Source of the DNA: Solimonas variicoloris DSM 15731 | GTDB lineage: Bacteria > Pseudomonadota > Gammaproteobacteria > Nevskiales > Nevskiaceae | DNA length: 64,000 nucleotides | Reading direction: 5' to 3' | Assembly (NCBI RefSeq): GCF_000382285.1 | Contig: NZ_KB907932.1 | Location: forward strand, 62,001-126,000 | In this document: piece by piece, positions 45,169 to 57,677 of the stretch | Layout: every line of letters starts with the position of its first letter | Numbering within the stretch: position 1 is the first letter of the stretch | Made by a program: the position numbers and the translations under genes | Notes under the pieces: generated by a model | Told to the model about the DNA's origin: nothing | The model's input: the letters and a program-made list of their open reading frames with translations, nothing else | Database searches by the model: none

Positions 45169-46323
45169 TCAGCCCTTGAGCAGGCTGAGAACGTTCTGCG
45201 GCACCGAGTTGGCCTGCGCCAGCATCGAGGTGCCGGCCTGCTGCAGGATCTGCGAGCGCGTCATGTTCGCCGTTTCGACCGCGAAGTCGGCGTCCTGGAT
45301 GCGCGAGCGGGCGGACGACAGGTTCTCCGACGTGGTCGCGAGGTTGGACACCACCGACTCGAAGCGGTTCTGCACCGCGCCGAGCGTGGCGCGCGCCGAG
45401 TTGATCTGCGACAGCGCGCTGTCGGCCTGCTGGATCGCCAGCGAAGCGCCCGAGAACGAGCTGAGGTCCAGCGAGGTCAGGCCGGTCGTGGTGGCCGCCG
45501 TCGCCGAGCCGTCGCCGCCGGCGACGTTGAAGCCGGTGGCGGTGCCGTCGTCGGTGCCGGTGACGGCGATGTCGGCGGCCGAGCTGAGGACGATGCGGCC
45601 GGTGGCGCTGTCGAACGCGGCGTTGACGCCGGTGGTCGTCGCGTAGTTGTTGATCGCATCGACGACCTGGCCGACGCGCTGCTGCGAGGTGCCCGCGGCG
45701 CCGATGCTGGCGCCGACGTCGACGCCGTTGATGACCAGCGCGCCGGCGCCGACCGCGCCGAGCGCGGAGATGCCGGAGACCGCGCTCGACTGGCCCGAGG
45801 CGGAGGTCACCGACCCGAGCGCCGCCGTGTTGGCGTCGACCAGGCCCGAGACGGTGATCGTCTCGCCGGCGTTGGCGCCGACCTGGAACACCGACGAGGT
45901 GAAGCTGCCGTCGATCAGCGCGACGCCGTTGAACTTGGTCTGGTTGGCGACGCGGTCGATTTCCTGCAGCAGCTGCGTGGCTTCGGTCTGCAGCGCGGCG
46001 CGGTCGGTCGAGGAATTGGTGGCGTTGGCCGACTGCACGGCCAGCTCGCGCACGCGCTGCAGCGAGTCGGAGATCGAGCTCAGCGCGCCGTCGGCGGTCT
46101 GCGCCAGCGAGATGCCGTCGTTGGCATTGCGCTGCGCCTGATTGATGCCGGTGATCTGGCTGGAGAAGCGGCTCGAGATCGCCAGGCCCGCGGCATCGTC
46201 CTTCGCGCTGTTGATGCGCAGGCCCGACGACAGGCGCTGGATCGAGGTGGCCAGTGACGACTGCGACGACTGCAGATTGCGCTGCGCGTTCAGCGACATC
46301 ACGTTGGTATTAATGCCTTGCAT
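45169..46323 (-). CDS. fliC: flagellin FliC
   Basis: A 384-residue flagellin. The N-terminal D0/D1 helix INTNVMSLNAQRNL and the run QRLSSGLRINSAKDDAAGLA are hallmarks, and the C-terminus ends NSVPQNVLSLLKG. The variable surface domain (about 140-285) is rich in Ala, Gly, Ser and Thr. It is exported by the flagellar type III system and forms the filament. It has its own sigma-28 promoter at 46427-46453. Only one flagellin gene is in the window. Confidence 0.97.
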   Translation of the reverse strand: MQGINTNVMSLNAQRNLQSSQSSLATSIQRLSSGLRINSAKDDAAGLAISSRFSSQITGINQAQRNANDGISLAQTADGALSSISDSLQRVRELAVQSANATNSSTDRAALQTEATQLLQEIDRVANQTKFNGVALIDGSFTSSVFQVGANAGETITVSGLVDANTAALGSVTSASGQSSAVSGISALGAVGAGALVINGVDVGASIGAAGTSQQRVGQVVDAINNYATTTGVNAAFDSATGRIVLSSAADIAVTGTDDGTATGFNVAGGDGSATAATTTGLTSLDLSSFSGASLAIQQADSALSQINSARATLGAVQNRFESVVSNLATTSENLSSARSRIQDADFAVETANMTRSQILQQAGTSMLAQANSVPQNVLSLLKG

Positions 46324-46890
46324 GAATGCACTCCTGATGAGGAAGGGTTGAAGTCCGGGCCGACGGCCACTGCGGCTTTCGGTCCTGCCTCAGCAGATCC
46401 GCGAGCGGATTGCCGTTGCTGATCCCTTATCGGGCTACGCCGCGCAAACTTGAGCGCATTCTTCGATGGGCGACGAGCGGCGATGCGGCGTCGATGAACG
46501 GCGTCGCGTCGGCTTGCACGGTGGCATGGCGCTTTCCGGCGTCGGGCGCAGCGTCGCGCTCGCCGCAGCGCGCCGCCCTGCCGCCGCCTGCGCGCCGAGG
46601 CGCGGCCCGCGCGCCGGTCCGGCTCTCGGCGACCAGAGGCGGCAGAACCCAGGACCTGCGGCAAGAACGGGCTCTTGCCGGCGCCGGACGGCGGCGCAGA
46701 CGCCGACGAACGCCACGGCATGAGGCGATAAAATGCGGTTCCACCGCATGTTCCACGCGTCCGGCAAGAGACCGTTGCGGGCCTGTTTCTTCGCCGTCTA
46801 TCTTCTTCGTTGCGGTACCGGCCCGGTCCGCGCGTAATCTAGATGGTGTCCGGCGAACCGCCGCTCGCACTTTCAGTGGGGGAACTCACC
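46324..46890. other. divergent intergenic region between fliC and the fimbrial operon
   Basis: This stretch of 567 bases holds the fliC leader and its sigma-28 promoter. For the plus-strand fimbrial operon a possible -10 (TAATCT, 46835-46840) has a TTGCGG 19 bases upstream, which is too wide for confidence. Open frames here show no family features. The leader contains small inverted repeats such as ATCCGC-GAG-CGGAT. Confidence 0.5.
46427..46453 (-). promoter_or_regulatory. sigma-28 (FliA) promoter of fliC
   Basis: On the minus strand TCAAGTTT-N11-CCCGATAA matches the FliA consensus TAAAGTTT-N11-GCCGATAA at 14 of 16 positions with exact spacing. It lies about 104 bases upstream of the fliC ATG. 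Confidence 0.88.
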
Positions 46891-47385
46891 ATGTCTCTGA
46901 AGAATGTCCGCGTCATCGTGCCTGTGCTGCTGGCCGCCGTCGCCCTGCCGCAAGTCGCGATCGCCGCCACCGCCAGCAGCACGCTCACCGTCAACGCGCT
47001 GGTCCTCAACATCTGCTCGGTCGCGCCGGCGACGCTGAGCTTCGGCAACGTCACGGGTTCCGGCGACACCGACGCCACCGCCAGCATCCTGGTCACCTGC
47101 ACGCTCAACACGCCGTACGCCGTCGCGCTCGATCAGGGCGCCAACGGCAGCACCGTGACCACGCGGCAGATGAAGGCGACGCTCGGCACCGACCTGCTCG
47201 GCTACAGCCTCTACCGTGACAGCGGCCGCACCCAGAACTGGGGCACGACGGCTGGCACCGACACCGTCGACGGCACCGGCTCGGGCCTGACGCAGACGCT
47301 GACCGTCTATGGCCGCGTACCGGCCTCGCTCGCCTCGCCGAGCGGCACCTACAGCGACACCGTCAACATCACCGTCAACTACTGA
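46891..47385 (+). CDS. spore-coat-U domain fimbrial subunit
   Basis: A 164-residue secreted protein. The signal peptide ends near AIAAT (about residue 26). The SCPU domain has the conserved CSVAPATLSFGNVTGSG start and TVYGRVPASLASPSGTYSDT end, closing in ITVNY. Two cysteines probably form a disulfide. Such proteins are pilins of archaic chaperone-usher fimbriae used in adhesion or biofilm. It is first in a four-gene operon with chaperone, usher and a second subunit, and GGGGGA precedes the ATG. Confidence 0.9.
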   Translation: MSLKNVRVIVPVLLAAVALPQVAIAATASSTLTVNALVLNICSVAPATLSFGNVTGSGDTDATASILVTCTLNTPYAVALDQGANGSTVTTRQMKATLGTDLLGYSLYRDSGRTQNWGTTAGTDTVDGTGSGLTQTLTVYGRVPASLASPSGTYSDTVNITVNY

Positions 47386-47390
47386 GCGCC

Positions 47391-48116
47391 ATGCGCCTCG
47401 CGCTGCTGCGCCGGTTCGGTGTCATCGCGGCGCTGCTGATCGCCGCCCCGCTACGGGCGGCGCCGGGCGGCATCGCCGTCAGCCCGCTGCGCCTCGACAT
47501 GGCCGCGGCGCGGCCGACCGCGGCGCTGACCGCCGCCAACAGCGACGCCGCGGCGCACCGCTTCCAGATCGAGCTGCTGCGCTGGACGCAGCCGGGTGGT
47601 CGGGATCATTACGAAGCGACCGACGCGCTCATCGCCAACCCGCCGCTGTTCGAGCTGGCGCCGGGCGCGCAGCAGGTGGTGCGCGTCGGCCTGCTCGACG
47701 TACCGGCGGGCAGCGATGAGCAGGCCTTCCGCCTCTACCTGACCGAGATCCCGCGCGCCAGCGAGCCGCCGGCGAGCCAGCTGAACTTCATGCTGCGGCT
47801 CGGCGTGCCGCTGTTCGTCGCGCCGCAGGGCGCGGTGCGGCGCAGCTGGCGCTGGAGCGCGCGACTCGACGGCCAGACCTACGTGCTGCGCGCCGACAAC
47901 GACGGCAACGTGCACCAGCGCCGTGCCGGCCTGCGTCTGTTCGATGCCGATCGCCAGATCGAGATCGGCCACGACGCCGGCTTCCGCGACGTACTGCCGG
48001 GCGCCTACTCGGAATGGCGCTTCGCCGCCGCGCCACCGCTCGCCCGCCGCCTGCGCATCTCGGCGACGACCGACGCCGGCGCCGATGACAGCACGATCCC
48101 GCTCGCGACGCCGTAA
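47391..48116 (+). CDS. periplasmic fimbrial chaperone
   Basis: A 241-residue PapD-like chaperone. The signal peptide ends at LRAAP. The first Ig domain has GIAVSPLRLDM and the conserved ALIANPPLFELAPGAQQVVRV, and the second domain begins near residue 150. It caps the open Ig fold of SCPU subunits and carries them to the usher. It starts five bases after the subunit gene and overlaps the usher start by 32 bases. Confidence 0.9.
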   Translation: MRLALLRRFGVIAALLIAAPLRAAPGGIAVSPLRLDMAAARPTAALTAANSDAAAHRFQIELLRWTQPGGRDHYEATDALIANPPLFELAPGAQQVVRVGLLDVPAGSDEQAFRLYLTEIPRASEPPASQLNFMLRLGVPLFVAPQGAVRRSWRWSARLDGQTYVLRADNDGNVHQRRAGLRLFDADRQIEIGHDAGFRDVLPGAYSEWRFAAAPPLARRLRISATTDAGADDSTIPLATP

Positions 48117-50427
48117 GCTCCCCAGCCTCGCGCTCGCGCTGGCGCTGCCATGCGTGAGCGGCACGGCCGTCGCCGGCAACGGCTGGTTCACCGATCGCTG
48201 CCCGGATCGCGCCGAGATCTTTCCGCCGACGCCGCAACGCCTGCTGCTGCACGTGCTGCGCGATCCGCGCGACGACGGCGAGGATCTGCTGCTGCTGCGC
48301 CTGCCCGACGGCCAGCTGTACGCGCCGAAACGCCTGTTCGAATTCATCGGCATCGCCGCGCCGGAGCCGCCGCTGCGGCGCGGCGACGAAGCCTGGTACC
48401 GGCTCGATGCCGTCGACGGACTGCGCTACGCCGTCAACGCCTGCGAGCAGACGCTGTCGGTCGACGCCAGCCCGCTGCGCGCGCGCGACGTGCGTCGCCT
48501 GCTGCCGGAGCGGCAGACGCGCTTCGCGCATTCCGAGCCGGGAGGCTACGCGCAGGCCGACCTGCAGTACCTGCATGCGCGCGGCCATGACACGGTTTCA
48601 GGCCTGCTCGACGCCGGCCTGTTCGGCCCGTACGGGCTCGCCGGCAACACGCTGCTCTACGACGGCGAGCGCGCGGTGCGACTCGATACCAGCTGGACCG
48701 TCGACGACCCGCTGCATCTGCGCCGGCTGCGCCTCGGCGACGGCATCACGCGCGGCGGCGCGTTCGGCCGCGCACTGCGCTTCGCCGGCGCGCAGTGGGG
48801 CACGGACTTCAGCCTGCAGCCGGACATCGTCACCTTCCCGCTGCCCGGCGTCACCGCCAGCGCAGCGCTGCCGAGCGCCGTCGACGTCTACGTCGACGGC
48901 ACGCTGCGCGCACACCAGGACGTCGACGCCGGACCGTTCCAGCTCGAGCGCATTCCGGTCATCACCGGCGGTGGCCAGATCCAGCTGGTCGTCACCGATC
49001 TGCTCGGCCGCAGTTCGGTCTACCGCTACGACTTCTACGCGTCCCAGCAGCTGCTGCGCGCCGGGCTCGACGATTACACCGTCGAGGCCGGCAGCGAGCG
49101 GCGTGATTACGGCCGCGAGTCGCTGCACTACGGCGATGCCTTCGCGGCCGGCACCTGGCGGCGCGGTCTCAGCGACTGGCTGACCGGCGAGCTGCACGCC
49201 GAGGCCAGCGCCGACCGTCAGGTCTACGGCGCCGGCGCCGCCTATCTGCTGCCGTACCTCGGCGTGCTCGGCGGCGGTCTGGCCTTCGGCAGCGGCGACA
49301 GCCACGGCCTCGAGCTCAGCGCCGGCCTCGAGCGCAACACGCCGGCCTGGAGCTACGGCGCCTCGTACACGCGCACGCCGCGCAGCCTGCGCCGCGTCGG
49401 CGAGATCGAGCCGGCCTCGCTGCAGCGCACGGTCGTGCGCGGCAGCCGGCAGCTCGCCGGCCTCGGCTCGCTGAGCCTCGCCTGGCTCGAAGACCGCGGC
49501 CCCGACGGCACCCGGCTGCGCGGGTTCAGCTTCGGCGGCAATGCACGCCTCTGGCACCAGGGTGCGCTGGCCGTCGGCGGCTTCGCCGATGTCAGCGACC
49601 ATCAGCGCAGCAGCCTGTACGCGAACCTCAGCTGGACTTTCGGCCGCACGCTGAGCGGCGGCGCCAGCTGGCAGCGCAACGACGGCGATGATGTCGAACG
49701 TGTCTCGGTGCAGCGCGCGCGGCTCGAATCGATCGGCTGGGACGCGGGCGCCTACGTCGAGCATGGCGCGAGCACGCGCGTCGGCGGCAGCGCCGCGCTG
49801 ACCGATCCGCGCGCGATCGTGCGTACCGACGTCGAGCGCGACGCCGATGGCAGCGCCGTCCGCGTCGGGCTGCGCAGCGGCGTCGTCGGACTCGGTCCCG
49901 ACTGGTTCTGGACCCGGCCGACCAGCGGCCCGTTCGCGGTCGTCGAAACCGGCGGCGCCGAAGCGGTGCGCATCTACGACGAAAACCGTCTGGCCGGCAC
50001 GACCGGCGCCGACGGCCGCCTGCTGGTGCCCGACCTGCGCCCGTACGAGCCGCGCCGCATCGCCATCGCCGACAGCGATTTCGCGATCGACGCGCGCCTC
50101 GACGAAACCGCGCGGCGCATCGAAGCGCCCGGCTACGGCGGGATCCGCGTGCGCCTCGGCGCGCCGGCCGCCGCCGCGCGGCGGATCCGCCTGCGCCTCG
50201 CCGACGGCCGCCCGCCGCCGCCGGGCAGCGACGTCGCCGCCGCCGGCCTGGCGCCGCGCTTCACCGGCCGCGGCGGCGAGCTGCTGCTCGACGGCCGGCC
50301 CGGAAACTATGCCCTCGACGTGCGCTGGCACGACGGGCAATGTTCAGCCCGTGCCGCGCTGCGCGCCGAGGATCGCCTCAGCGACGCGCCACTCGATGTC
50401 CCCTGCACCGTCCGGCCCCTGCCATGA
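48085..50427 (+). CDS. outer-membrane fimbrial usher
   Basis: A protein of about 780 residues with an Arg-rich N-terminus then a signal helix (SLALALALPCVSGTAVA). The usher barrel (about 130-660) shows VDVYVDGTLRAHQDVDAGPF and GGGQIQLVVTDLLGR, the plug-region signature of ushers. C-terminal periplasmic domains end near a Cys-containing segment. It exports and orders fimbrial subunits. ATG 48085 gives a signal peptide and overlaps the chaperone gene; the upstream frame is a shadow. The C-terminal half ends just at the next gene's ATGA. Confidence 0.88.
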   Translation: MTARSRSRRRKLPSLALALALPCVSGTAVAGNGWFTDRCPDRAEIFPPTPQRLLLHVLRDPRDDGEDLLLLRLPDGQLYAPKRLFEFIGIAAPEPPLRRGDEAWYRLDAVDGLRYAVNACEQTLSVDASPLRARDVRRLLPERQTRFAHSEPGGYAQADLQYLHARGHDTVSGLLDAGLFGPYGLAGNTLLYDGERAVRLDTSWTVDDPLHLRRLRLGDGITRGGAFGRALRFAGAQWGTDFSLQPDIVTFPLPGVTASAALPSAVDVYVDGTLRAHQDVDAGPFQLERIPVITGGGQIQLVVTDLLGRSSVYRYDFYASQQLLRAGLDDYTVEAGSERRDYGRESLHYGDAFAAGTWRRGLSDWLTGELHAEASADRQVYGAGAAYLLPYLGVLGGGLAFGSGDSHGLELSAGLERNTPAWSYGASYTRTPRSLRRVGEIEPASLQRTVVRGSRQLAGLGSLSLAWLEDRGPDGTRLRGFSFGGNARLWHQGALAVGGFADVSDHQRSSLYANLSWTFGRTLSGGASWQRNDGDDVERVSVQRARLESIGWDAGAYVEHGASTRVGGSAALTDPRAIVRTDVERDADGSAVRVGLRSGVVGLGPDWFWTRPTSGPFAVVETGGAEAVRIYDENRLAGTTGADGRLLVPDLRPYEPRRIAIADSDFAIDARLDETARRIEAPGYGGIRVRLGAPAAAARRIRLRLADGRPPPPGSDVAAAGLAPRFTGRGGELLLDGRPGNYALDVRWHDGQCSARAALRAEDRLSDAPLDVPCTVRPLP

Positions 50428-50894
50428 AACTGCGCACCTGCCTGCTGGCCATACCGCTCTGCCTCGCCTGCCGGCCGGCGCTGGCCTTGCTCGAAAGCTG
50501 CTCGGCTTCGACCAGCGCCGTGTCGTTCGGCAACTACAGTCCGTTCTCCAGCGTCGATCTCGACACGACCGGCACCGTGACGGTGACCTGCACCGCGTTG
50601 CTCAGCATCGCGGTCAACTACACGATCAAGCTCGGCCCCGGTGTCAGCGGCAGCTTCAATCCGCGCCGCCTGTCGACCGGCCCGTATACGCTGAACTACA
50701 ACCTCTATACGAACAGCACGCGCACGAGCGTCTGGGGCGACGGCACCGGCAGCACGCAGACGGTCAGCGACGGCTACGCGCTGGGCCTGCTGATCGTGAC
50801 GCGCAACTACACCGTCTACGGCCGCCTGCCGGCGCGACAGAACGCCGCGTCGGGCGTCTACAGCGACACGGTGGTCGTCACCGTCGAATACTAA
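50424..50894 (+). CDS. second spore-coat-U subunit, likely tip or adhesin
   Basis: A 156-residue secreted protein with signal peptide ending at ALA. It shares the SCPU pattern with the first subunit: CSASTSAVSFGNYSPFSS at the start, YTVYGRLPARQNAASGVYSDT and a terminal VTVEY. Its ATG overlaps the usher stop (ATGA), so it is translationally coupled. In archaic chaperone-usher systems the gene after the usher often codes for the tip subunit; that role is inference. Confidence 0.83.
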   Translation: MKLRTCLLAIPLCLACRPALALLESCSASTSAVSFGNYSPFSSVDLDTTGTVTVTCTALLSIAVNYTIKLGPGVSGSFNPRRLSTGPYTLNYNLYTNSTRTSVWGDGTGSTQTVSDGYALGLLIVTRNYTVYGRLPARQNAASGVYSDTVVVTVEY

Positions 50895-50930
50895 AAAGCG
50901 CGCACGGCGGGCGGACGCCGCCGTGCGCGC
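50893..50930 (-). terminator. terminator between two convergent operons
   Basis: A 13-bp perfect stem, GCGCGCACGGCGG/CCGCCGTGCGCGC, with a seven-base loop occupies 50898-50930. On the minus strand it is followed by TTTTTAG, a T-run suited to end the lipoprotein operon. The stem can also act for the fimbrial operon, though its plus side lacks T residues. Confidence 0.8.
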
Positions 50931-50938
50931 CGGGGCGC

Positions 50939-51712
50939 TCAGCGGCAGAACAGATCGGCCTCGTCGCTGTCGGCGACGCGCAGCAGCTCGAGCAGTCCGC
51001 TGAAATGCTCGCGGGCCGGCGTATCCGGCCGCGCGCCGAGCATCAGGCCCGTCGCGTCGCGCGACAGCAGCGGCGCGCCGGCGGCCTTGGCGAAGCCGGC
51101 GACCGCCTTGCAGTCGAGCTCGACGCGCACGTTCTGGCCGTCGGCGGCCACGTACAGATTCGTCCAGTCGCCGCGGCCGTCGAGCGGCAGCAGCAGACGC
51201 TTGTCCTGCGCCGGGAACTCGACGACCACGCTGTCGACGCTGGCCTCGACGTTGAACACCGCGCTGCCGAGCGACAGCACCGTCTGCAGGGCGTCGCCGG
51301 CGGCCGGCTTGAAGCGCAGGTGGATCGCGAACACGTCGCCGATCGGCGTGTTCGCGAACACCGAGTTGTCGGCCGTACGCAGCTGCGCCGGCGCGGTCTC
51401 GCCGTCGGCGTTGAGCTGGATGATCTGGCCGCCGGTGTCGGCGCTGTCGCCGCGCACGAGGTCGCGCGTGGCGAGCGGCTGCAGGCCGGCGTCCTCGAGC
51501 ACGAGGTCGTTGCCGTACGGCGCGTTGTCGTTGACGCAGAGCGCGGCGACGTCGGTGCAGGCGCGCGTCTGCATGGTCCAGAAGCCGAGCGTGTGGCCAT
51601 CGACCGGCATGACCTCGACCGGGACGTCGCGGTCGACCACCTTGTGCTCCGTCTCGGTACAGGCGGCCAGCGGCGCGGCGAGCGCCAGCAGCGGCATCAG
51701 CAGTTTCTTCAT
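50939..51712 (-). CDS. lipoprotein with possible LamG/concanavalin-like domain
   Basis: A 257-residue lipoprotein with lipobox PLAAC (Cys18). The mature part has many beta strands, such as VFAIHLRFKPAAGDALQTVL and DWTNLYVAADGQNVRVELDC. This is the alternation seen in LamG/concanavalin-like sandwiches, which bind sugars or proteins; the fold is inferred and not certain. It contains at least four Cys besides the lipid site. It is translationally coupled to the large NAGPA-phosphoesterase gene (ATGA overlap at 51709-51712), so the two likely act together at the cell surface. Confidence 0.6.
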   Translation of the reverse strand: MKKLLMPLLALAAPLAACTETEHKVVDRDVPVEVMPVDGHTLGFWTMQTRACTDVAALCVNDNAPYGNDLVLEDAGLQPLATRDLVRGDSADTGGQIIQLNADGETAPAQLRTADNSVFANTPIGDVFAIHLRFKPAAGDALQTVLSLGSAVFNVEASVDSVVVEFPAQDKRLLLPLDGRGDWTNLYVAADGQNVRVELDCKAVAGFAKAAGAPLLSRDATGLMLGARPDTPAREHFSGLLELLRVADSDEADLFCR

Positions 51713-54700
51713 GGGCGTTCTTCCGTTCGGTGCGCGGCGGCCGCGCGCGGCTGCAGCACGATGTCGTCGACCACCTGACCGTCGAGGGTCTTGGTCAGTA
51801 CGTGCATCTGCGCGCCGCGGATCGACAGCGTCGTGTAGGTGTTGAGGTTGTCGTCGAACAGCACGTCGGCGAGACGGGCGATGCCGGTGCCGTTGCTGTC
51901 GTAGTACTTGGCCGAATCCGAACCGGCGATCAGGTAGGTCGCGCCACCGGCGCGCGGCGAGCCGCCCGCGAGCGGCACCGAGCGCGAGTACATGTGGTCG
52001 TGGCCGCTGATGACCAGATCGATGCCGGCGGCGTCGACGACCGGTGGAATGTAGGCGGCCGAACGCCCGTTGCCCGAGGCCGGATTGCCGTTGTACGGCG
52101 GCCGGTGCAGCATCAGGATCTTCCAGGTCTTGCCGCTCGCCTTCATGTCGGCTTCGAGCCAGGCCATCATCGCCTGCCAGTCCGCTTCGTCCGGCGGCTC
52201 GCTGCTGAGCACGGCGATGTGCGCGTTGCCGTAGTCGAAGCTGTAGTTGGCGCGGTCGTACGGCGCCACGCTGCTGCCCTGCGCATACGGCAGCGGGAAC
52301 AGCGAAGCGAACTTCACGGCGCCCTCGTTGAGGACCTCGTGGTTGCCTTCCGCCGGCACCAGCAGCTTCGACGCCAGCTGACCCTCGCCCTGCATCGCGT
52401 CGAAGAACAGACGCACCAGACGGTAGTCGGTGATGTCGTCGGTGAAGTCGCCGACGTGCAGGATCAGCTCGCCACCCGGCAGCTGCGCCTGCATCTTGCG
52501 GTACAGCTCGCGGACCAGGCCGTTGCCGTTGAAGATGTTTTCGTCGGACAGCGTCTGCGTGTCGCCGAACAGGAAGATGTCGACCGCGTCGTCGCCATCA
52601 TCGGTGCGCAGCGAATAGGTCGGGCTCATCTGCAGCGTGCCGTCGCCGACGCTGTAGTAGTACGTCGTGCCCGGCTGCAGGCCGCTGAGCTGGGCGTGAT
52701 GCACGCGCACCGCGCCGGATTCGGTGCCGTAGAAGAACGGCACGATCTCCGAGTAGCCCTGCGCGCTGCGCGACAGTGCGCCGCTGGTGCCGTAGTGGAC
52801 GAGCGAGGCCTGCGCGCCGAGCGAGGTGAACCAGGTGACGTTGACCACCGACGGATCACCGGTCGGCGTCAGGAACGCATGGCGCGGCGCGTAATCGAGG
52901 CGCTCGACCAGCGCCAGCACCTTGCTCATCAGCGACGAGCCGCTGCCGTCGTAGGCGCGGAAGATCAGCTCCTGGGTCGCGCTCGCCGCCGGCAGATCGA
53001 CCTTGAGCAGACCCTGCGCGTCGGTGCTGCCGAGCGGCTTCACGTTGCCGACCGTATCGGTCGCGCTGTTGTAGACCAGCGACTCGACGCTGACGCCCGG
53101 GGCCGGACGGCCGTCGCCGCCGACCACCAGCAGATCCGCGGCCTGACCGCCGACGCCCCAGTTGGTCATCAGCACATAACGCCCGCCGACCGGCTTGCGG
53201 ATCACCGGATGGTAGTAGGTCTGGCCATCGAGTTCGCCGCCGACCGTCACCGAGATGTCGGTGTTCTGGATGTAGTCCTTGACCTTCAGGCGCAGCGTCG
53301 CCAGCGTCTGCGTGGACGCCGCGAAGCCGCTGAAGCTGCCGCTCCAGGTGCCGTTGCCGGCGACCACACCGCCCGGCGCCAGATCGCCCGGAATCACTTC
53401 CATGCTGGCCTTGGTCGCGTCGTAGCCGAGGCGCAGGTTCAGCGTGCCGAAGTGCGCGCCGCCCTCGACGCGGATCGGCAGATCGAAGCTGCCGCCCGGG
53501 TAGAACGTGACGTTGCTGCTGTCGACGTAGATGCGCGACGCGCCGGTGACGACGTTGAACAGCAGGTCGCCGGCCGAGACGTTGCCGTTGATGTCATGCA
53601 CGCGGTAATCGACGCGGTGCCAGCCGTCGGCGAGGTTCTGCGTCTGGTAGTCGAGGCGGTCGCGGCCGTTGCCGACGACCTGGGCGCTGACGTCCTGGCC
53701 GTCGAGCTGCAGCTCGAAGTCCTGGAAGTCGACGCCGGACGCATCGTTGAGCTGCAGGCTGATCTTCGGCGCGGCGTTGTCGACGGTCGTGCCGCTGGCC
53801 GGCGTCACCGTCACGCCCGGCCCCTGCAGGTCGGTGTTGTCGCTGTAGACGGCGGTGAAGTTGTCGAGCAGCACATGCGAGTCGATGCGCTCGGCCGTCT
53901 TCAGCACCAGGAAGCGGAACGGCTGCGAGAAGCGCAGCGGCTCGCGGAAGCCTTCCGGGATCTGCGCTTTCATGAAGTGCCAGCCGCGCTCGGGCAGCGG
54001 CTCGCCGTCGTTGTTGTAGTTGATCGTGACCTGCTTGTTGTCGGCATCGACGAGCAGGCCGCGCACCCACCAGACCTTGCCGGCCAGCTCGTCCGGAATG
54101 TAGACGTTGACGCCGAGGTACTTCGGATAGCCCGGCAGCGTCTTGGTCTTCGACGGATCGGTCAGATACGCGCCGAACGTGCCCGGCTGCTTCGGATCGG
54201 TCTCCCAGCTCAGCTGCATCGAATAGCGCCCGGCGAACACCGGCTCGCCGACCTTCTCGATGCTGACCTTCTTGTGGCGGGCGCCGGAGGCGGCATAGAG
54301 GCTGGTGTCGCCTTCGAAGTCTTCCATCACCACCGGCGGCACGCCGATGTCGACCTGCACCGAGGCAGACTGCTCGCCGACGCTGACCGTCACCGTGCAG
54401 CGACGGCCCTGCACGAAGCCGGCGGTCAGCACGCCGCTCGCCGCGTCGAGCGAACAGTCGGCCGGATTGTCGACGCTGTAGTGCAGGATGCTGTTGTCGT
54501 AGGTCACCGCGCGGCCGCCGCTGCTCAGCACCGGCTGCAGCTGCAGCGAGGCGCCGCCGTCGAGCGTGTAGACGCTGCGCGCGAAGCTGATCGCGTCGAT
54601 CTGCGAGATCACGCGCACGCGGGCGACGCCCTTCTTGTCGCCGGCGCGCACCACGACGTAGCCCTGCGCGTCACCACTGGCGGCGCGGAAGGCGCCGGTG

Positions 54701-56262
54701 ACCGGATCGATCAGGCCGAGCGCCGCATCGCTGAGGCCGTACTCGACCGGCAGGCCGTCGCGCTCCCACTGCCCGGCGTCGAAGCCGACGCCGCGGAAGC
54801 GGCGGTAGGTCGAACCGGCGAGCAGCGTCAGCTCGCGCGGATAGACGGCGACACCATTGGCCGACGGCGCGTGCTGCGGATCGATCGTCAGCGCCCACTT
54901 GGTCGCAACCACGCGTTCCGCGCCGTCCGACGGCGTGTTGAGCAGATGCGTGTAGCGCTCGCCCGGAAAGCGGCTGACCAGCGTCGTCGAGCCGCCGCCA
55001 TCGAAGTTCACCGCCTTGACCGCGCCGTAGGCGCGCATCAGCTGGCCGAGCTTGGTCCGCGAGATGCCGTCGCCGGTCGAGCCGACCGGCTTGTCGGCGA
55101 TCAGGAAGAAGGCGCTGCCGTCGGCGCGGATGCCGAAGGCGGTGCGGCTGCTGATCTCGTTCTCGTCGGCGTCGGCCGCCAGTTCGCCGTTGTCGACCAG
55201 CAGGCCGCGGCCGAAGCCGGCGCCGAGCGCATAGCGCACCGTAGACCAGTTCGCATCGTCGGTCTCGTAGCGCAGCGCGATCTGGCTGCCGGCCGGGATC
55301 GCGGCGGCGCCGACGATCAGCGCGTGGCCGGCCGGAATCACATAGCTGGCGTCGCCCTGCACCTGGCCGACGACCTCGCCGGAGAACGGCGCGAACTGCA
55401 CGCTGTTGCTGCCGTCCTTGCGCGCGATGACGGTGACGCCGTTGGCCTGCGGCCGCACCAGCACGCCGGTCTTGCCGCTGAGGTCGATCGTGCCGCGGTA
55501 GTTCTCGGCCGTGTAGACGGCGACCGGCGAGCTGCCGCGCGAGAACGACACGTTCTTCTGCTGCGAAGCGTCGTAGCGGTAGACGCTGCCGACTTCGCTC
55601 GCGTACTCGCCGGCGACGTAGAGCTTGAGCGTGAAGCTCGGCACCTGATCGAGAATGTCGACGCGGCCGTCGTCATAGACCACCACCGCCTCTTCATTGC
55701 GGTCGCTGAAACCCGTGTAGGTGACGCCGCCGGTCTTGATCAGGCCGACGTTCCAGCCGTTGACCATGTCGTAAGGATCAGCGTTGACCGCCAGCACGAT
55801 GTTCTGGCCGGCGTCGATCGCGCGGTCGGCCGAGCGCGTCGTGCGCTCCATCGTGAACTGCCCGCCGGAGCGCTGCACCGGCACCATCGCCAGGCCGGCG
55901 CCGGGCTTGAAGTCGGCGACGATCAGCGCTTCGTTGCGGGTGTGATTGAGCTTGCCTTCAGTGATGCTCAGCGCGTCGTTGACCTGATACTTCTGCAGGT
56001 CGCTGATGACGGTCGGCTCCGGCTCCTTGCTGGTCGTGCCTTCGACCACCGTCGCGACCGGCGCCTCGAACTGCGAATCCGCGTCGGCCGGCGCGGCGAT
56101 GACGTTGGCGACGAAGTTCTCGCCGGCCGACTGGTCGTCGACATAGCGGACGGCATGATCGCGGTACGTGGTCTCGGTGTCCTTGTTGCAGGCACTGAGC
56201 CATCCGCACAGCAAGAGAGATCCGCAAGCGATCCTTGTTATCGCTACCAAACGACGTGACAT
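51709..56262 (-). CDS. surface lipoprotein: NAGPA glycosidase, cohesin-like and metallophosphoesterase modules
   Basis: A 1517-residue lipoprotein (lipobox LSAC, Cys25, Asn at +2). Modules in order: NAGPA-type phosphodiester glycosidase (about 100-460, hallmark FDGGGST at 420-426); Ig/BIG2-like domains (470-640); a carbohydrate-binding-like sandwich from MEDFEGDTSLYAA (645-805); an Ig-like domain (815-905); a cohesin-like module (908-1010, YPGGSFDLPIRVEGGAHFG); a carboxypeptidase-regulatory-like repeat (1040-1115); a purple-acid-phosphatase fibronectin domain (1120-1222); and metallophosphoesterase (1228-1490). Metal ligands are D1234, D1272, N1307-H1308, H1386, H1421 and H1423, all present, though motif I is GDTQ rather than DxH. 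NAGPA enzymes split sugar-1-phosphodiesters. A two-step removal of a sugar then its phosphate from a surface polymer is inference. The upstream 218 bases to flgL hold nothing I recognise. Confidence 0.85.
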   Translation of the reverse strand: MSRRLVAITRIACGSLLLCGWLSACNKDTETTYRDHAVRYVDDQSAGENFVANVIAAPADADSQFEAPVATVVEGTTSKEPEPTVISDLQKYQVNDALSITEGKLNHTRNEALIVADFKPGAGLAMVPVQRSGGQFTMERTTRSADRAIDAGQNIVLAVNADPYDMVNGWNVGLIKTGGVTYTGFSDRNEEAVVVYDDGRVDILDQVPSFTLKLYVAGEYASEVGSVYRYDASQQKNVSFSRGSSPVAVYTAENYRGTIDLSGKTGVLVRPQANGVTVIARKDGSNSVQFAPFSGEVVGQVQGDASYVIPAGHALIVGAAAIPAGSQIALRYETDDANWSTVRYALGAGFGRGLLVDNGELAADADENEISSRTAFGIRADGSAFFLIADKPVGSTGDGISRTKLGQLMRAYGAVKAVNFDGGGSTTLVSRFPGERYTHLLNTPSDGAERVVATKWALTIDPQHAPSANGVAVYPRELTLLAGSTYRRFRGVGFDAGQWERDGLPVEYGLSDAALGLIDPVTGAFRAASGDAQGYVVVRAGDKKGVARVRVISQIDAISFARSVYTLDGGASLQLQPVLSSGGRAVTYDNSILHYSVDNPADCSLDAASGVLTAGFVQGRRCTVTVSVGEQSASVQVDIGVPPVVMEDFEGDTSLYAASGARHKKVSIEKVGEPVFAGRYSMQLSWETDPKQPGTFGAYLTDPSKTKTLPGYPKYLGVNVYIPDELAGKVWWVRGLLVDADNKQVTINYNNDGEPLPERGWHFMKAQIPEGFREPLRFSQPFRFLVLKTAERIDSHVLLDNFTAVYSDNTDLQGPGVTVTPASGTTVDNAAPKISLQLNDASGVDFQDFELQLDGQDVSAQVVGNGRDRLDYQTQNLADGWHRVDYRVHDINGNVSAGDLLFNVVTGASRIYVDSSNVTFYPGGSFDLPIRVEGGAHFGTLNLRLGYDATKASMEVIPGDLAPGGVVAGNGTWSGSFSGFAASTQTLATLRLKVKDYIQNTDISVTVGGELDGQTYYHPVIRKPVGGRYVLMTNWGVGGQAADLLVVGGDGRPAPGVSVESLVYNSATDTVGNVKPLGSTDAQGLLKVDLPAASATQELIFRAYDGSGSSLMSKVLALVERLDYAPRHAFLTPTGDPSVVNVTWFTSLGAQASLVHYGTSGALSRSAQGYSEIVPFFYGTESGAVRVHHAQLSGLQPGTTYYYSVGDGTLQMSPTYSLRTDDGDDAVDIFLFGDTQTLSDENIFNGNGLVRELYRKMQAQLPGGELILHVGDFTDDITDYRLVRLFFDAMQGEGQLASKLLVPAEGNHEVLNEGAVKFASLFPLPYAQGSSVAPYDRANYSFDYGNAHIAVLSSEPPDEADWQAMMAWLEADMKASGKTWKILMLHRPPYNGNPASGNGRSAAYIPPVVDAAGIDLVISGHDHMYSRSVPLAGGSPRAGGATYLIAGSDSAKYYDSNGTGIARLADVLFDDNLNTYTTLSIRGAQMHVLTKTLDGQVVDDIVLQPRAAAAHRTEERP

Positions 56263-56480
56263 GTGAGCCCCTGACTGGTGTTCCGGCGGTGGCGACGTGC
56301 ACAGCCGCAGCGCCGCGCGCCGACCATCGAGGCGGCGGTGCGGCAACGGTTGCGTCGCGCGGCACTACGGCATGCGCGCGAACATCGCGGGGCGCAAGGT
56401 AAGCGGGGGCTGTTTCAGCTTCGTGGCGAAGCCGTGAAAGCGCGACCGGCGCGCATGAAGATCCGGTCAGGCACGCGACA

Positions 56481-57677
56481 TCAACGCAGGTAGTCGAACA
56501 GCGACAGACCCTGGACCTTGGTGTAGACCTGCTGCGCGGCTTCCAGCGTCGTCATCTGCAGCTGCAGGCGCGCGATCGCGTCGGCGTAGTCGAGGTCGCG
56601 CAGATCGGAGGCGGCGCTGGTGGCGTGCTCGCCGACCGCGGCGGACACGTCGAGCGCGTCGTCGATCGCATTGAGACGGATGCCGATGCCGGAGCGCACG
56701 TCGCCGAAGTGATCCTCGGCGCCCTGCAGCGCCGTCAGGCCTTGCTGCAGCGCCGTCTGGATCTGCGCGCGCTGCGCCTCGCTGTCCTGCGGCTGGGCAA
56801 CGAGCGTGGCGAGACCGTCGACCAGCGCGAACACGTCCTGCGTCGTCGACGGCCCGAGCGTGAACTGATCGCCGGCCGCCGGCGTGCCGCTGAAGCCCAG
56901 CGTCGTGCCGCGAAAGCCGATCGACGCACCGTCGGCATAGCTGCCGCTTTGCAGCACCGCGCCGCCGCCGTCGACGATTTCGTAGTGGCCGGCGTCGCTG
57001 AAGCGCAGCGTGTACGAGCCGCCGTCCCAGGCCGCGGCGTCGCTGACGCTGGCCTTCGTCAGTGCCGCGCTGCCGGTATTGCCGGCCGCGGCGCTGACCG
57101 CGAAGCGGCCGTTGCCGGTCTTCAGGCCCATGAAGACCGCATCGCCCGGATCGTTCTGGGCGACATAGCGCGTGCTGCCGATCTGCGCGCTGACCGTGGT
57201 CTGGTCGCCGGCGTAATCGGCGCTGCTGCCGTTCCAGCTGAACGGCAGCCCGGCGTCGTCGGCGCCGCCGAACAGGTAGCGGCCCTGCCCGTCGCTGGTA
57301 TTGGCCAGCGCCAGCAGCTGGTCGCGGATGCTGACCAGTTCCTTGGCGATCGCCTGCCGCGAGCTGTCGGACTGCGACGCGGTGTTGGCCTGCACGACCA
57401 GCTCGCGCACGTGCTGCAGCAGGCCGATGCCGCTGGCGAGGCTGTCTTCGCCGAGCTGCAGGCGCGCCTGCGCGCTCTGCGCCGCCTGCGTGTACTGCTG
57501 ATTCTGCGCGAGCAGCTGATCGTAGTTCTGCGCCGCCGCCCAGCCGGCCGGATCGTCGGCGGCGGTGCGCCACTTCTGGTTGGCGCTGAGCTGTGTCTGG
57601 GTCCTGGCCAGCGCGTTCTGCTGGCGCTGCATCTCGGCAACGCCCTGCTGGTAGTGCCACGCGGTCGAGATTCTCAT
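56481..57677 (-). CDS. flgL: flagellar hook-filament junction protein FlgL
   Basis: A 398-residue protein starting MRISTAWHYQQGVAEMQRQQ. Flagellin-like helices at both ends include TAADDPAGWAAAQNYDQLLAQ, GRYLFGGADD and the C-terminal LQLQMTTLEAAQQVYTKV. With FlgK it joins the hook to the filament. It follows flgK by 14 bases. The next gene on this strand is the NAGPA lipoprotein, not fliC. Confidence 0.95.
   Translation of the reverse strand: MRISTAWHYQQGVAEMQRQQNALARTQTQLSANQKWRTAADDPAGWAAAQNYDQLLAQNQQYTQAAQSAQARLQLGEDSLASGIGLLQHVRELVVQANTASQSDSSRQAIAKELVSIRDQLLALANTSDGQGRYLFGGADDAGLPFSWNGSSADYAGDQTTVSAQIGSTRYVAQNDPGDAVFMGLKTGNGRFAVSAAAGNTGSAALTKASVSDAAAWDGGSYTLRFSDAGHYEIVDGGGAVLQSGSYADGASIGFRGTTLGFSGTPAAGDQFTLGPSTTQDVFALVDGLATLVAQPQDSEAQRAQIQTALQQGLTALQGAEDHFGDVRSGIGIRLNAIDDALDVSAAVGEHATSAASDLRDLDYADAIARLQLQMTTLEAAQQVYTKVQGLSLFDYLR

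Follow-up and report, generated by a model that had tools for sequence, protein, structure and literature searches.

The window analysed here is the whole of a 64,000-nucleotide stretch of DNA from Solimonas variicoloris DSM 15731 (contig NZ_KB907932.1, positions 62,001 to 126,000), and this text concerns one gene within it, here called P0001, whose product combines in a single polypeptide a phosphodiester glycosidase domain of the NAGPA family and a calcineurin-like metallophosphoesterase resembling the purple acid phosphatases (PAPs). A first-pass annotation, made from the sequence alone, had described this fusion and had suggested that its two halves act one after the other; the finding is real and rightly read at the domain level, while the mechanism may be taken as a fair hypothesis. 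The features of P0001 and of the adjoining gene P0002 are as follows, with residue numbers referring to P0001 and immunoglobulin abbreviated to Ig.

51709–56262, minus strand: P0001, a predicted lipoprotein of 1517 residues comprising NAGPA, binding or Ig-like modules and a PAP-like phosphoesterase (open reading frame, Pfam, codon score).
56188–56262, minus strand: putative signal peptide with a lipobox-like LSAC, Cys25 being followed by Asn (sequence, lipobox rule).
54868–56007, minus strand: NAGPA-type glycosidase region, residues 86–465, with its Pfam core at 299–457 (Pfam, alignments).
54346–54867, minus strand: linker or Ig-like region, residues 466–639, alignable to a Metabacillus homologue; no Pfam family listed.
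53818–54345, minus strand: shared middle module, residues 640–815, common to proteins of Metabacillus, Streptomyces and Paenibacillus (the GHL10 protein).
53551–53811, minus strand: Ig-like module, residues 818–904, with CopC/Big_13 below cut-off (Pfam).
53197–53550, minus strand: residues 905–1022, the likely site of a cohesin-like module proposed earlier; unsupported by Pfam.
52603–52887, minus strand: Pur_ac_phosph_N domain, residues 1126–1220 (Pfam).
51988–52578, minus strand: Metallophos domain, residues 1229–1425, with D1234, Q1236, D1272, D1275, N1307, H1308, H1386, H1421 and H1423 (Pfam, alignments).
50939–51712, minus strand: P0002, a second predicted lipoprotein of 257 residues, its start overlapping the stop of P0001 (ATGA; open reading frame).
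50897–50931, minus strand: terminator-like hairpin of 14 pairs directly after P0002, weak if taken alone (2 such sites in the stretch against 2.2 expected by shuffling).

The limits of P0001 were borne out, the coding strand being the minus strand (window positions 56262 to 51709), and the product begins MSRRLVAITRIACGSLLLCGWLSAC-N. A frame antisense to it is open too (51730–56259 on the plus strand, 1509 residues), as can happen at a G+C content (GC) of 70%; a codon score calibrated on the flagellar genes nearby selects the minus frame. Both P0001 and P0002 are called lipoproteins on the strength of the lipobox rule. Exposure of P0001 at the cell surface, on the outer membrane, is presumed rather than seen, because a lipoprotein signal is silent as to which face of that membrane is involved.

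The matches on which the domain reading depends all lie above their curated Pfam cut-offs: PF09992 (NAGPA) covers residues 299–457 with 86.2 bits against a cut-off of 25 (E 3.8e-24), PF16656 covers residues 1126–1220 with 67 bits (E 2.9e-18), and PF00149 covers residues 1229–1425 with 49 bits (E 1.3e-12). The FDGGGST hallmark claimed for the glycosidase is present at residues 420–426. A scan of P0001 against NCBIfam gave nothing above cut-off. Among sequences in the PDB, DUF2233 and NAGPA chains match the N-terminal part, and purple acid phosphatases, a wheat phytase among them, match the C-terminal part. Structure prediction with AlphaFold2, in two jobs with alignments of 19 and 8 rows, gave mean predicted local distance difference test scores (pLDDT) of 46.8 and 45.1, too low for active-site geometry; Foldseek searches with these low-confidence models ranked BACOVA_00430 and NAGPA chains first in one case and purple acid phosphatases first in the other, and these model-based fold searches simply agree with the sequence assignment.

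The modules proposed to lie between the two enzymes fared less evenly. The cohesin family (PF00963) gave no Pfam match up to E 1, and the segment where such a module might have lain (905–1022) aligns poorly to the Bacillota homologues (19% and 17%), so the cohesin module was rejected. In the case of the sugar-binding-like module (640–815) a shared domain does exist, but its sole matches are weak and are to spirochaete FlaA; a glycan-binding jelly roll is suspected. The resemblance to these flagellar sheath proteins reaches E 7e-5 (profile A8, to PDB 10pl), PF04620 is found in two of four members of the middle-module family, that of P0001 not being one of them, and the FlaA-like module occurs in secreted enzymes away from flagellar loci.

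Within the NAGPA half, P0001 retains N160 and D162 (of the NAD motif), R373, D390, DGGGS at residues 421–425, N442-x-P-S-D and E449-R450, that is, the DGGGS core together with other residues invariant in ten aligned NAGPA members. It belongs to the DGGGS type, which none of the 29 other PF09992 loci read (of 40 other matches in the phylum sample described below) does. Between the N-terminal NAD motif and the NAGPA core it has roughly 100 residues more than the Metabacillus homologue. The mammalian uncovering enzyme and BACOVA_00430 (a DUF2233 protein) share with P0001 both the sequence family and the DGGGS core; unlike P0001, they are not known to carry a phosphatase domain at full length.

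In the C-terminal half the metallophosphoesterase motifs read earlier are indeed present (GD1234TQ, GD1272FTD1275, GN1307H1308E, H1386 and GH1421DH1423), so that all five calcineurin-like motifs are found, and Pfam places the PAP N-terminal domain and Metallophos side by side. The residues D1234, D1272, D1275, N1307, H1308, H1386, H1421 and H1423 are identical in P0001 and two Bacillota homologues. The tyrosine of the GDxxY motif is a metal ligand that gives purple acid phosphatases their colour. P0001, however, reads GDFTD at this point, and because Asp replaces the Tyr ligand the domain is best described as PAP-like in build and not as a strict PAP, nor should it be purple. Plant purple acid phosphatases and phytase match over both PAP-N and Metallophos, and differ from P0001 in that the latter has Asp for this Tyr and DxQ for motif I. 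To place these variants, 51 frames matching a PAP-like profile were reduced to 42 rows (the counts leave out eight named loci, which were duplicates or were short or weak, as well as rows that scored below 50 bits); the Tyr of GDxxY is found in 24 of these and Asp in five (four fused rows and a Priestia protein), while 17 have DxQ as motif I. The tree of this half puts the four fused rows on one side of a branch (82/63), joined to two Bacillota rows (93/93), and apart from 17 enzymes native to the family to which Solimonas belongs; the Solimonas branch is long (1.6).

Relatives outside Pseudomonadota were drawn from 72,556 plasmid records, 24 of which match P0001 and two of which span both halves. 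The first of these, from Metabacillus dongyingensis (WP_243551320), has NAGPA, PAP-N and Metallophos in the same order as P0001 and is co-linear with it over residues 342–1503 at 26%; the second, from Pseudobutyrivibrio xylanivorans (WP_151625912), has the same order and adds choline-binding repeats. Both are Bacillota proteins named as “phosphodiester glycosidase family protein”, both keep a DGR motif that P0001 lacks (see below), and neither is accompanied by a relative of P0002 in the plasmid collection, where no P0002 relative was found at E 0.01. A third protein, from Streptomyces clavuligerus (WP_003959332), aligns to P0001 over residues 325–815, from NAGPA through the middle module, and then continues into a Metallophos domain which, unlike that of P0001, has no PAP-N match, and which among solved structures is most closely related to Rv0805 and to a phosphohydrolase, presumably GpdQ. 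A Nonomuraea record holds a relative of this protein (56% identical over its residues 90–1153), and a PAP-like profile matches neither of the two at 1e-5. The same NAGPA-plus-middle-module unit is present in both lines checked, Metabacillus and Streptomyces, and the middle module is seen again in the Paenibacillus GHL10 protein. Two further observations were made in these records: the last metal motif of the Streptomyces fusion (L087:3077-6706) is seemingly unusual, reading AHVGVFH for GHxH, and in a Bacteroides finegoldii plasmid locus (L090:2833-6760) two NAGPA genes have genes for SusD, TonB receptors and BACON carbohydrate-binding proteins as neighbours, which points to a glycan-use setting.

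It follows that the layout of P0001 is not a new kind of enzyme, and that its novelty was overstated; it is a rare further member of an existing one. The claim that no proteobacterial system of this layout has been described stands for this proteobacterium, as far as was searched, since no account of this Solimonas gene, or of the tandem reaction, was found in the open-licence literature; it does not stand for the layout as such, which occurs in Bacillota, NAGPA fusions moreover being stated in the literature. In PMC11488536 (2024), ShfP is presented as belonging to a vast radiation of calcineurin-like phosphoesterases at the cell surface, whose members may be fused to NAGPA, and a figure legend there gives FN3 domains of Pur_ac_phosph_N type. 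On this account the ShfP/YvnB radiation consists of secreted phosphoesterases with Ig and FN3 domains, as P0001 is, and the domain combination of P0001 fits the NAGPA-fused branch as worded there (a comparison of text with Pfam). ShfP of B. subtilis itself, in contrast, works in sporulating cells; it has a lamin-tail domain along with seven Ig domains, but lacks NAGPA. Two other papers describe NAGPA together with a TelC-type domain in large Bacillota proteins, with a role in conflict suggested (PMC12419801), and predicted NAGPA-like phage depolymerases (PMC9862828).

PMC11488536 also cites PhoD, predicts targets of teichoic-acid-like, DNA or lipid-head-group type and reports ShfP-dependent release of glycerol, and so lends support to an alternative in which the phosphoesterase cuts backbone phosphodiesters, in the way that PhoD attacks teichoic acid, while NAGPA trims side-chain sugars from the same polymer, the two working in parallel with no product passed on. 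The DxQ and GDxxD motifs, being unlike those of classical PAPs, favour such parallel activities, as does a weak match, under cut-off, of the Pseudobutyrivibrio homologue to PhoD_N; that the half is nevertheless nearest by sequence, among PDB entries, to purple acid phosphatases and a phytase counts the other way, and on balance we consider this alternative unlikely, though it deserves to be taken seriously.

Within Pseudomonadota the layout is rare. A search with P0001 found matches in 21 of the 58 genomes of the family, at full length in only the genome itself and the one designated G038, the others matching through the phosphatase half alone, while in a class sample 28 of 369 genomes match at 1e-10 and only its own does so at full length. 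A profile built from three rows (A1) matched 35 of 85 genomes of the order at 1e-5 (two at full length, again its own and G038) and 13 of 398 phylum genomes at 1e-10 (full length only in its own). It should be borne in mind that these samples overlap, and that scoring in those of 369 and 398 genomes was confined to no more than two candidates per genome, a limit that may have hidden weak matches. For PF09992 taken alone, 40 of 249 phylum genomes gave 41 matches, and apart from that of P0001 the open frames concerned are all 245–532 residues long. The idea that the gene is phage cargo was rejected: of 50,697 phage records, eight match just one of the halves and none matches both. One scan of IMG/VR gave 32 loci with NAGPA relatives, a PAP-like profile matches none of these 32 viral-contig frames at 1e-3, and scans of viral contigs with profiles A1 and A3 found no relative.

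As to origin, recent transfer from Bacillota was rejected in view of the host-like GC (68% in a 70% window), the high host codon score and the long branch of the phosphoesterase half; an old transfer from that phylum may still have occurred. Descent from the phosphatases native to the family was likewise rejected, as the 17 native rows form a separate clade (100/100), with GDxxY in 17/17 and DHx as motif I in 16/17. A single origin of the PAP fusion would agree with the 82/63 branch uniting the four fused rows, but would require three changes on the NAGPA tree.

The genome of the window is very close to that of Solimonas flava DSM 18980, where P0001 is 98% identical. The P0001/P0002 pair sits in the gap between flgL and fliC (46323–56481), between flgL and a pilus-like operon. 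This last, on the plus strand at 46843–50894 and convergent with the pair, is a chaperone-usher set with spore-coat-U-like subunits (here and in two relatives the naming of chaperone-usher pilus operons is our own assumption). Both flgL and fliC are present in 11/11 genomes of the genus, on one contig in nine, and the gap measures 0.3 kb in G037, 2.6 kb in G041, 5.6–8.2 kb in G045, G040, G042, G044 and G043 (in the last of which both genes were matched in pieces), 10.2 kb in the window and 11.1 kb in G038. In G045 and G040 a putative chaperone-usher operon runs toward flgL on the opposite strand, ending 4 bp from the flgL stop. The gap is thus near empty in one genome and holds pilus-like operons or other genes elsewhere, with the NAGPA pair only in the window genome and G038; because its content varies in this way, it seems to be a variable site that received the pair in the S. 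flava lineage. P0002 is correspondingly found in two of the 58 family genomes (its own and G038). Its match to a lectin-like family is far under cut-off (12.4 against 27.6 bits), and a lectin-like fold is suspected as a guess. In G038 the final 20 residues of P0002 are matched once more, by a short stretch some 190 bp past the gene (L102, G038:C2:320334-320393), which may be a trace of duplication.

Lying between flgL and fliC and beside a pilus-like operon, P0001 could be thought of as a flagellum- or pilus-linked factor that edits a filament phosphoglycan. It begins 218 bp from flgL, in the same direction and with no terminator-like site found in between, for which reason read-through from the flagellar genes is possible, and the weak likeness of its middle module to FlaA points the same way. 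Against this, the gap in relatives contains other genes or almost nothing, as would be expected of an insertion site; no annotated flagellar genes are present in the stretches covered around the homologues from Metabacillus, Pseudobutyrivibrio and Streptomyces; and no FliA-type site was found near the start of P0001. Such a role is accordingly very improbable. Sigma-70 sites numbered none, against 0.4 expected.

The reading that we favour, to which we would assign a probability of roughly 0.45 on sequence grounds, is that P0001 is an envelope-anchored degradative enzyme that removes first a sugar and then phosphate. The lipid anchor would hold it on the outer membrane, the middle modules would hold glycan, the NAGPA domain would cleave the sugar from a sugar-1-phosphodiester to leave a phosphomonoester, and the C-terminal binuclear metallophosphoesterase would then release inorganic phosphate from the latter. 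The substrate might be a polymer of sugar-1-phosphate units, or else a decorated glycan resembling teichoic acid or capsule; the cell would gain both sugar and phosphate. Both domains, their order, most of the motif residues and a layout shared with Bacillota are observed; the side of anchoring, the activity of each half, the order of reaction, the substrate and the benefit we infer. That NAGPA is fused, in separate phyla, to two phosphoesterases of unlike appearance supports the tandem chemistry indirectly, and this pattern, which involves four proteins besides those of Solimonas, is the best sign of its kind that the reactions belong together.

A number of points weigh against this proposal. 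The DGR motif is absent from the NAGPA half, P0001 and S. flava both having DKP in its place, and in the NAD motif the Asp is followed by Pro (NADP), most other rows of the type having an aromatic residue there (NADF). Resolution in the NAGPA tree is poor, and the PAP-fused rows do not come out together in it. The roles given to the middle modules are conjectural, as is the surface side, each half might attack a bond of its own, and no Pho-box-like site was found upstream of P0001, where one would have fitted phosphate scavenging. The PAP-like and Rv0805-like phosphoesterases share a BLASTP stretch of 25 bits (E 0.039), and the Streptomyces protein also has DAQ and GDLVD, so that the DxQ and GDxxD motifs are common to both; the two fusions may not be independent, and may reflect replacement or deep divergence within one old fusion.

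The first of these points might be pressed further, to suggest that the NAGPA domain has turned into a binding domain and that P0001 is an anchored phosphatase with a single catalytic half. The changes of DGR to DKP and of F to P in the NAD motif would suit this, as would the long Solimonas branch in the NAGPA tree (2.55). We treated DGR as common in PF09992 rather than family-defining, however: among 17 rows of DGGGS or DSGGS type it is found in 12, with EGR, EGT and DGE in one each and DKP in two (both Solimonas), while DKPG occurs in three of the 32 viral-contig NAGPA loci (L136, L148 and L149, in the frames holding position 2501), and vertebrate uncovering enzymes have DGQ at this position. 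Because of this recurrence and of the vertebrate DGQ, the DKP variant lowers the case for NAGPA activity without removing it; and with R373, DGGGS, N-x-PSD and ER all retained, loss of catalysis strikes us as improbable. A further alternative is that P0001 scavenges nucleotide sugars, NAGPA splitting UDP-N-acetylglucosamine (UDP-GlcNAc) to GlcNAc and UDP and the phosphoesterase dephosphorylating UDP or UMP. Hydrolysis of UDP-GlcNAc by the uncovering enzyme is described in PMC12024695, but this scheme would leave the large middle modules unexplained, and there seems little chance that it is correct.

PF09992 is widespread among the sampled Pseudomonadota, and to our knowledge the substrate is known for few of its bacterial members. 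The fusion with a phosphoesterase gives a testable relation between products, in that the phosphomonoester left by one half would be the substrate of the other, and finding the same NAGPA-plus-middle-module unit with two different-looking phosphoesterases makes their coupling more believable than a single fusion could. In its widest form the proposal, which is doubtful as a whole and is put forward tentatively, would be that a NAGPA-phosphoesterase unit stripping sugar-1-phosphodiesters to sugar and phosphate came together on more than one occasion, with a PAP-like partner in Bacillota and an Rv0805-like one in Actinomycetota, and that a Solimonas lineage took one up as an outer-membrane lipoprotein with a small lipoprotein partner, giving a phosphoglycan-use system of which no description was found in Gram-negatives. 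The Solimonas gene would in any case provide an environmental Gram-negative setting in which such coupling could be tested.

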